Positions 20,867-53,615 of a stretch of DNA of 64,000 nt are shown piece after piece (position 1 is the stretch's first letter; every line of letters starts with the position of its first letter). Position numbers and translations under genes: made by a program. Source of the stretch: Candidatus Nanosyncoccus alces (GTDB taxonomy: Bacteria; Patescibacteriota; Saccharimonadia; Saccharimonadales; Saccharimonadaceae); NCBI RefSeq assembly GCF_004138395.1, contig NZ_PRLM01000006.1, forward strand, positions 124,001 through 188,000, given 5' to 3'. The notes under the pieces are model-generated. The model ran no database searches. It was not told the DNA's origin and saw only the letters and a list, made by a program, of their open reading frames with translations.

Positions 20867-20895
20867 TTGACAAAAATAAGCATGTGTGTTATAAT
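20867..20895 (+). promoter_or_regulatory. promoter of the interrupted 20951 gene
   Basis: TTGACA (20867-20872), 17 bp, TATAAT (20890-20895), with GTGTGT before the -10. Confidence 0.85.
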
Positions 20896-20950
20896 TAGGG
20901 CAGAAGCTTTTCTTCAGGAGCTTTGAAATTTTAGAATTGGAGTGATATTC

Positions 20951-21614
20951 ATGAAAAGAACTGAAGATTATATTTCTCTGGAAAGAGAAGAGCTCTGCGA
21001 GGCGATTTACGCCAACGACAGTGCTTTTATCGCCGAGGTGATGGAGGGGTTCAATTTTGTAAAAGATGGCACCCCCCCCCCACTTCACAGAAGGCATGCA
21101 TAGCCTCGCCTTCGTCACGCTGGAGATTGCAGCAATAGCTGCGTCAAAAGATGCTCTGACCGATGAGATTATGCAGCTGATCATCAACCACACCGCGACC
21201 GTGGTCGACATTTTCGGCTTTATGCGCCCTGCCGCCAATGGCTGTTGTTGGGATCAGGGCAAGAACGATTATGAACAGATCCCTAAGAAGTTAAGAAAGG
21301 CTCTTCGTGAGAATAAGTTCAGCGAAAAAGCCGCGAAGACGATCGACGCGCTCTCTCAGGAAGAGTTTGTCGCTTTGATCAATTATGTCGTCAGTGGAGA
21401 AATAGAGGAGCTTAACATCGGCTTCTCGTTACCCATCATCAGAGGGTTCTATCAGCATAAGTTGCTGATCCCCTGCCTGATCTTCTCCTATATGGCGTCA
21501 GCCTTGAGAACTCCTATCCCCAATGCACTGATTGAGTTCGGCGATATGTTGTTCGGTAGCCTGTTTGATGACATTGAGTCTGAAGACGAAAACGACAATG
21601 AAGAAACCGAGTAA
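20951..21614 (+). pseudogene. hypothetical gene interrupted at a C10 tract (possible phase-off state)
   Basis: A strong promoter and TTGGAGTG lead to ATG 20951, encoding MKRTEDYISLEREELCEAIY. The frame runs into ten C (21072-21081) and stops at TAG 21101. The rest of the protein continues in another frame from the tract (HFTEGMHSLAFVTLEIAAIA) to 21614. Removing one C restores a single 220-residue protein. The family is not recognised; it is mostly helical, with no signal peptide, and ends in an acidic tail (SEDENDNEET). Phase variation or a sequencing error in the homopolymer are both possible. Confidence 0.75.
21072..21081 (+). repeat. C10 homopolymer in a coding region
   Basis: Ten consecutive C break the frame of the 20951 gene; nine would restore it. 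Codons around it would read Thr-Pro-Pro-His. Confidence 0.9.
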
Positions 21615-22563: not shown

Positions 22564-23205
22564 TTATAGGACAGCTTCGATATCCTCGATGATCTCATCG
22601 ATGAAATGGCGCTTGATAGCATCCTCGGGAAGCATGTAATACTCTACGCGAGCAAGAGCATCGTAGTCTGACCCCGTCATATTACTGTGCTTCAGGATAT
22701 GTTCTTTAACGATTTCTTGCTCAAAACGCTTATCGAATTCCACTCTGTCTTGCACCTTATTGGTGGAACCGCCGGCGAATAGTGACCCCTCATGAAGAAG
22801 GAACTTCGTGTACGGCAGTGCGAAACGTTTGTGTCCGGTGATACCGATCAAGAAGGCCATTGAGTTCCATTCTCCTATGTTGATAGTGTAGACGGGAGTC
22901 TTTGAAAGCTCAATTGCCGCTACAAGCGGAAAGCCTTCGGCGACGTCCCCACCAGGAGAATTGATAAAAAGTTTGATAGGGCGACGCTGGTCTGGTGGGA
23001 GCTCCCTATCCTCTGCGTTGAACTCGAAGATGAGTTGGACAATCTGCGCGGCCGTGGACAGATACTCATTGACGCTGTCCTCATCATCAAGAGAATAGAT
23101 TGCGCGAGAGAGGTAGAGTCTCCGTTCTTCCGTGGACCTAAGGTTTTGGTATTCTTCTATCGTGCAACCAATCCTGACGATTTCGTCTGGGATTTTGTGT
23201 AGCAT
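22564..23205 (-). CDS. ClpP-family serine protease homologue
   Basis: The fold of the Clp proteolytic subunit is clear: IKLFINSPGGDVAEG, then GEWNSMAFL with the nucleophile at Ser115, and TKFLLHEGS with His138. The third triad position, normally Asp, is Glu188 (VEYYMLPEDAIKRHFIDEII). The GxASM motif is altered to GEWNSM. It has an extended N-terminus (about 35 residues) before the core. ATG 23205 is chosen because AGGAGG lies 8 nt before it; a GTG at 23214 falls inside that site. Codon use follows the accessory class. It may be a specialised paralogue; no Clp ATPase is adjacent. Confidence 0.85.
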   Translation of the reverse strand: MLHKIPDEIVRIGCTIEEYQNLRSTEERRLYLSRAIYSLDDEDSVNEYLSTAAQIVQLIFEFNAEDRELPPDQRRPIKLFINSPGGDVAEGFPLVAAIELSKTPVYTINIGEWNSMAFLIGITGHKRFALPYTKFLLHEGSLFAGGSTNKVQDRVEFDKRFEQEIVKEHILKHSNMTGSDYDALARVEYYMLPEDAIKRHFIDEIIEDIEAVL

Positions 23206-23232
23206 TACTGCCACCTCCTTTTAAGATTGCTA

Positions 23233-23241
23233 CCCCCCCCC
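23233..23241 (-). repeat. C9/G9 homopolymer in the leader of the ClpP-like gene
   Basis: Nine C on the plus strand are G9 in the mRNA leader of the minus-strand ClpP-like gene, about 20 nt before its AGGAGG and downstream of its predicted transcript start. Confidence 0.85.
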
Positions 23242-23269
23242 ATGACATGAGGAGGGCAGTGCTGCGCCG

Positions 23270-50784: not shown

Positions 50785-50820
50785 ATAGATAAGCACGTTA
50801 AGAGGATTGGGGGTGTTTTG

Positions 50821-51324
50821 ATGCCTTCTTATATACTTGGGATAGCATGCCTAGTATCGTCTGCTGCGGTGTTCGGCGTCTATATATCTTGTGAGAAGGG
50901 CAGTGTAGCCAAGAAGATTGGCTTAGCACTATTACTGCCAGTACTTGCGGCATCAATAATTTTGTTCGCGGGATTTGATGTTCTGGCTGATAGAATATAC
51001 GTCTCTTCGGAAGTTTTATCTTCAAAAACATCAGACCTAGTTGTCATAGAGAAACCGAACTATTATTTAGTCTGTAGCGACGAAGGATATGAATTTCTCT
51101 ATATAGGCGAGGCCGGAAAAGAAACGGGCACATTTATTGATATCAGATACATTCATAGCGATAACATAAGGTATGATACGAACGAAGTCCCTCAAGTCAT
51201 TGAGGAAGAAGTAGCAAAAGGATATTATAAAAAATGGCTATTTTTAGAAAGTGGCATACAAAATGAGAAATATACAGAGTATAAATTTATCATTCCTAGC
51301 GAAAAAGATATCTTGTACAAATAG
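50821..51324 (+). CDS. hypothetical membrane protein, paralogue of the 53094 gene
   Basis: Two N-terminal membrane helices (about 3-22 and 32-55) are followed by a ~110-residue soluble domain. This domain aligns by eye with that of the 53094 product: YYLV at the start, then F.YI.EA, a KKWLF motif (NQWLF in the partner) and Y.F.IP near the end. The function is unknown. ATG 50821 is preferred to the TTG just before it; the GGGGGTG stretch serves as ribosome binding site. It is monocistronic. Confidence 0.68.
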   Translation: MPSYILGIACLVSSAAVFGVYISCEKGSVAKKIGLALLLPVLAASIILFAGFDVLADRIYVSSEVLSSKTSDLVVIEKPNYYLVCSDEGYEFLYIGEAGKETGTFIDIRYIHSDNIRYDTNEVPQVIEEEVAKGYYKKWLFLESGIQNEKYTEYKFIIPSEKDILYK

Positions 51325-53093: not shown

Positions 53094-53615
53094 ATGAGTA
53101 TTTGGATTTTTGTTGTGTTATTGTTTATATCCGCAGTTTTGTGTTATATTTCGATTATCGTTCTGGACGAAGATACCGAATTCGGCGGGTGCTTATTTAC
53201 TATAGTGGTCGTGGCCGTCTTCCTAATCAGCGCGGTTTCCACTGTGGGATTTTTCATCGGGAGGCAAGAAGTTGTAACTTCTGAGGAAACAGAATTACCC
53301 CCCCCCCATCAGCTGGTTCAGCTCACTACGGCGAAAGACGCCGAATACTATCTGGTTCAAAATGGAGGAAAATTCCAATTTTCTTACATTGATGAGGCTG
53401 ACGGTTTAGTCACGAGAGAGGCTGAAGTTGAAAACAGCAAAGTATACTACGGCACAAAGAAGGATAGCGACATCCGTGTTGTTATCCATGAAACCGTAAA
53501 GACCCACCATAACCAGTGGTTATTCATAAGAGACGGCGATGAAGAAGAAACTCTTTATGAATATGATTTTTATATCCCGAATCGGGATAATATCGCCAAT
53601 ACCTATGAAAAGTAA
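53094..53615 (+). CDS. hypothetical membrane protein with in-frame C10 tract, paralogue of the 50821 gene
   Basis: Two membrane helices (about 2-24 and 33-55) are followed by a short linker and a ~105-residue soluble domain like that of the 50821 product (EYYLVQ, FSYIDEAD, NQWLFIRDGDEEE, YDFYIPNRDNI). Ten C at 53298-53307 encode three prolines at residues 69-71, in the linker just after the helices. A gain or loss of one C would truncate the soluble domain. AGGAGGT precedes ATG 53094, which with the promoter excludes earlier in-frame starts. Confidence 0.72.
   Translation: MSIWIFVVLLFISAVLCYISIIVLDEDTEFGGCLFTIVVVAVFLISAVSTVGFFIGRQEVVTSEETELPPPHQLVQLTTAKDAEYYLVQNGGKFQFSYIDEADGLVTREAEVENSKVYYGTKKDSDIRVVIHETVKTHHNQWLFIRDGDEEETLYEYDFYIPNRDNIANTYEK
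53298..53307 (+). repeat. C10 homopolymer in a coding region
   Basis: Ten C lie within the linker of the 53094 protein and are in frame in this sequence. Confidence 0.9.

Follow-up and report, generated by a model that had tools for sequence, protein, structure and literature searches.

The window analysed here is a 64,000-nucleotide stretch of contig C6 in the 727-kb genome of Candidatus Nanosyncoccus alces (G000, 98% complete). Within it lies a gene whose 5′ and 3′ parts are in different reading frames, the two meeting at a run of ten consecutive C residues, the C10 tract (Table 1). An earlier, sequence-only reading had placed this run at 21072–21081, and a read-out of the sequence finds it at exactly these positions. 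The gene had been described as being split precisely at the run, with a promoter, ribosome-binding site and terminator of its own, and this description holds: the ATG frame ends just after the tract and the other frame continues to 21614, the promoter matches the consensus throughout, a GGAG precedes the start codon and a stem-loop with a weak T tail follows the stop. Reading through the tract yields a 220 amino acid product, in agreement with the earlier prediction that removal of one C would restore a 220-residue protein. The tract is so placed that a one-base change joins or unjoins the downstream frame and the ATG frame, as expected of a phase-variable locus. At the current tract length an internal ATG at 21066 shares its frame with the 3′ part.

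Table 1 Features of the C10 gene and of two sibling tracts in the window
Feature	Position	Strand	Details
Sigma-70 type promoter, TTGACA-17-TATAAT	20867..20895	+	12/12 consensus match, TG before -10
Shine–Dalgarno-like GGAG	20938..20941	+	9 nt 5′ of ATG 20951
5′ part of C10 gene	20951..21115	+	ATG frame, 40 codons to tract, TAG 21113-21115
3′ part of C10 gene	21066..21614	+	182 codons, from tract to stop
C10 homopolymer tract, proposed switch	21072..21081	+	codon 41 of 220
Terminator-like stem-loop	21633..21654	+	9 pairs, short weak T tail
Sibling G9 in 5′ leader of clpP-like gene (22564-23214, -)	23233..23241	-	nine G
Sibling C10 in small membrane protein gene (53094-53615)	53298..53307	+	frame open at C10

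That the two parts constitute a single gene, off at C10, is indicated by the comparison with relatives that the sequence-only reading had suggested. Four syntenic orthologues (in G164, G200, G055 and G102) adjoin the same gene encoding an SBP_bac_5 peptide-binding protein and all four are intact, reading straight through the codons at the tract, and in around 20 further family members a single protein runs unbroken past the break point. The 5′ part can be aligned to the N-terminal end of intact relatives and on its own scores 34.4 bits against the family profile; the 3′ part scores 202.7 bits, on a par with intact members. Promoters of the same TTGACA/TATAAT type are found upstream of most members of the family, and relatives have AGGAG(G) at the position matching the GGAG of the C10 gene. 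At the tract, the syntenic orthologues carry the codons ACC CCC ACC CAT, ACC CCC TCC CAT or ACC CCA CCC CAT, each of which is one substitution away from an unbroken, in-frame C9. The tract probably arose by a single substitution in an interrupted C run of this kind.

The sequence-only reading could not assign the protein to a family, and the family is indeed new: the 220-residue protein has no above-cut-off profile match in Pfam, NCBIfam, PADLOC, PHROGs or PDB, and a profile search with the orphan family against solved structures gave no credible match. The family is present in 24 of the 174 genus genomes and, within the same taxonomic family, in a single other genus; some genomes have several copies. 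The named relatives with the gene belong to Candidatus Saccharibacteria, and several of these genomes come from ruminant gut. G099 has several consecutive tandem copies (C2:127510-130012), and G044 and G442 each have two neighbouring ones. The C10-gene protein is 32–42% identical to its syntenic orthologues, compared with 74–78% for the neighbouring gene product, and therefore evolves fast. No signal peptide was seen by eye in family members and a surface location is not obvious. An all-helical AlphaFold model of the family, made from five rows, was discarded (pLDDT 41.7). The patchiness of the family, its recurring copies and its rapid change hint that the protein might have a role in host or phage contact.

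Of the 26 family genes from the genus that were examined, only two carry a run of more than six C, hence the C10 tract is not ancestral to the family. One is the C10 gene itself. The other is a homologue in the sheep ileum genome RGIG5750 (G008, locus L002), which has C10 at the matching codons (K-D-x-T-P-P-H-F-T) and is also in the off state; it belongs to a different species, lies at a different chromosomal place and encodes a protein 39% identical to that of G000. Both known tract alleles are therefore C10 and off, in different species, with no C9 allele seen and interrupted runs in the other orthologues. A profile scan of the genome contigs with a four-row alignment returned five loci, none of them a second allele from the C10 gene's own species.

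The C10 tract is not an isolated run. Nine-C matches number five in the window against 0.15 expected, and none of 100 dinucleotide-preserving shuffles reached five. Runs of C or G in the window fall steeply in number up to length six (four runs), are absent at lengths seven and eight and then reappear at nine to ten as three long runs, those starting at 21072, 23233 and 53298; A/T runs never exceed eight. Pattern searches across the 727 kb of G000 found 84 C/G runs of at least six bases, 17 of at least eight and 15 of at least nine, including one of 19. At shorter lengths each added base lowers the count four- to sixfold, and geometric extrapolation from this predicts around 0.5 runs of at least nine. 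Both the C10 run and the genome-wide excess thus lie well above chance, as they should at a phase-variable locus. Other tracts in G000 lie inside the genes encoding a PP2C phosphatase, a Band-7 protein and PhoH; further ones occupy promoters, including that of a papain-family protease gene. The C19 run (L060:2513-2531; C6:197712-197730 in G000) lies upstream of a gene for a secreted 583-aa protein. A C9 at C6:27184 sits in a terminator-like hairpin and may not be a switch.

Further clues come from where such tracts are found. The pattern GGGGGGGTATAAT, a G run abutting a -10 box, has 32 matches in the 174 genus genomes and none for the reversed control, and 36 matches against one for the control in 392 genomes of the class, spread over 11 genera. 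Of 75 tracts collected irrespective of promoters, 35 have a -10-like box immediately on the 3′ side of the G run, compared with two on the opposite strand, and 19 tracts have both -35 and -10 boxes, compared with none on the opposite strand. The spacers holding poly-G range from 12 to 22. Almost half of the genes behind promoter G runs (16/33) encode proteins with a strongly hydrophobic N-terminus, signal-like or membrane, and some encode leucine-rich-repeat and Listeria-Bacteroides-repeat (InlB-like) proteins. A leader resembling TATAAGCATAAAGGTTATA recurs after poly-G in G132, G034, G058 and G100, where the runs measure 11 to 16, and G156 has another clpP-like gene with a poly-G promoter spacer (L136).

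Tract lengths at sibling loci change between genomes and between paralogues, the two levels compared. One promoter has G9 and a spacer of 15 in G000, as against G11 and a spacer of 17 in G196, and paralogous promoters with matching flanks have G15 versus G10 in G027 and C11 versus C10 in G029. A coding tract of G8 at C5:32210 in G000 (L052) breaks the gene for a large membrane-anchored surface protein; in G044 (L214:1542) the tract is G9 and the frame is open, the surrounding DNA of the two genomes being 98% identical over 650 bp. This near-identical stretch terminates in divergent repeats, a pattern that suggests exchange of surface-protein modules between species. For the sibling C10 in the small membrane protein gene, the homologues are without a tract and hence allow no length comparison at that locus. 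The product of this gene and that of 50818-51324 are paralogous small membrane proteins encoded two kb apart, with C10 only in the gene at 53094-53615. In the predicted fold of the clpP-like leader (23192-23268, minus strand; z -2.3), the G9 pairs with CCCUCCUC and AGGAGG is free; CCCUCCU, from the pairing partner of the G9, could alternatively pair with AGGAGGUGGCAG, and the leader could possibly act as a tract-length-dependent RNA switch. There is no clpP-like gene between L31 and rpsB in G200.

The genetic background is one in which long runs should be prone to slippage. In a published survey, Saccharibacteria showed no MutS and no MutL (PMC8406219). In agreement with this, our search for the mismatch-recognition domain MutS_I was negative in all 60 genus genomes tested, the same search being positive in 11 of 14 control genomes. 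Loss of repair alone should lengthen all homopolymers, yet only G/C runs are long and these favour promoter spacers, and selection for switching is therefore the better reading.

Taken together, these results make it very probable that the C10 tract works as a phase-variation switch of the slipped-strand (homopolymer) type and belongs to a genus-wide contingency set. The sequence-only reading had proposed a phase-variable locus, and the intact orthologues, the second C10, the tract excess, the length differences at sibling loci and the lack of MutS all support it. On this model the tract would gain or lose one C during replication and, without MutS and MutL, length variants should arise often, so that we infer a high rate of length change within a population. 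With nine C, or another length in that frame, the gene would be on and encode one 220-residue protein. With ten, as in the assembly, ribosomes initiating at the true start would stop just past the tract and the gene would be off, the product then being at most an N-truncated protein from the internal ATG at 21066, where the Shine–Dalgarno sequence is poorly spaced. The C10 gene would thus be stochastically on or off, as one of about 15–17 G/C-tract loci in G000, many of them in promoter spacers or within genes.

The comparative evidence favours phase variation over both a dead gene and an error of assembly. That a single slippage became fixed, leaving a young pseudogene with no reversible role, would fit the off state of the assembled allele, the lack of the tract in most family members and the patchiness of the family, the presence of which in only 24 of 174 genomes implies that loss is tolerated. 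A gene drifting in this way should, however, show further lesions and relaxed sequence, and no second break is found in either half: both score as high as intact genes, and promoter and terminator have been kept. With the two halves undamaged and a second species in the same C10 state, elsewhere in the chromosome, a dead gene is unlikely; the genome-wide tract excess and its promoter placement also speak against one, and a run so long is slip-prone and should revert without MutS. Less probable again is an assembly or sequencing error, with nine C in reality and a gene that is simply on. Ten-base homopolymers are where assemblies err, and in G132 (L191, L192 and L193) several poly-C tracts have stretches of N immediately beside them, as might be expected had assembly failed at tracts that are long or of mixed length. 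Yet the rest of the window is intact, with 53 long ORFs making up 87% of it and 20 A/T runs of seven to eight inside them causing no breaks, and C10 is present in an independently assembled genome too. Nine C would, moreover, itself be an unusual and slip-prone run here.

The finding of exactly C10 in two species, both requiring the same shift, could also be accommodated if C10 were the working state, with ribosomal +1 frameshifting on CCC-C, or slippage by RNA polymerase, yielding a constant fraction of full-length protein. Recoding of this type should leave an out-of-frame layout conserved in the family, whereas just two of the 26 members examined are split and most of the family, including all four syntenic orthologues, is plainly in frame. 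Since most members read straight through, programmed recoding is not a family trait and, as it also leaves the promoter-spacer tracts unexplained, we regard it as the least probable of the explanations considered.

Phase variation through promoter spacers is known from porA and opc in Neisseria. The sibling loci resemble these and Haemophilus hif in having poly-G between -35 and -10, with the spacer range given above and orthologues one to two G apart, but differ in that many have the G run immediately next to the -10 box; the C10 gene itself is not of this type. Coding-frame phase variation by poly-G or poly-C is found in Neisseria and Campylobacter, for example in the meningococcal haemoglobin receptors (PMC3786947, PMC5084427, PMC3025981), and here the likeness to the C10 gene is close: a G/C homopolymer of around 9–10 within an ORF, the length of which sets the frame, and many loci per genome. 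The C10 gene differs in its phylum, in its unrelated protein family and in the absence of MutS and MutL throughout its lineage, and switching within the population is here deduced from comparison. Tracts between alternative start codons are also known in meningococci (PMC5084427). The sole hypervariable locus in the CPR found in the literature searched is a repeat gene in a Gracilibacterium (PMC6851277) but, unlike the C10 gene, this has nine-base repeats with synonymous variation and switches neither frame nor promoter. The slipped-strand mechanism is textbook, whilst its use in this phylum seems to be undescribed: no account of homopolymer phase variation in Saccharibacteria was found in the literature searched, most subscription papers being outside its reach.

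Saccharibacteria, which are very small and live on other bacteria, have few regulators for adjusting to their hosts. The chances are about even that G/C homopolymers form a genus- to class-wide regulatory layer in these MutS/MutL-less organisms, consisting for the most part of poly-G spacers in the promoters of genes for leucine-rich-repeat, InlB-like and other exported proteins, together with frame switches like that of the C10 gene, and that this layer diversifies cells in how they find and hold their hosts or evade phages. If so, a phylum for which the literature searched describes no phase-variable loci would have a full set of them. A set of slip-prone switches, many of them on surface proteins, would provide clonal diversity at no genetic cost and could explain differences in host range between sister cells.
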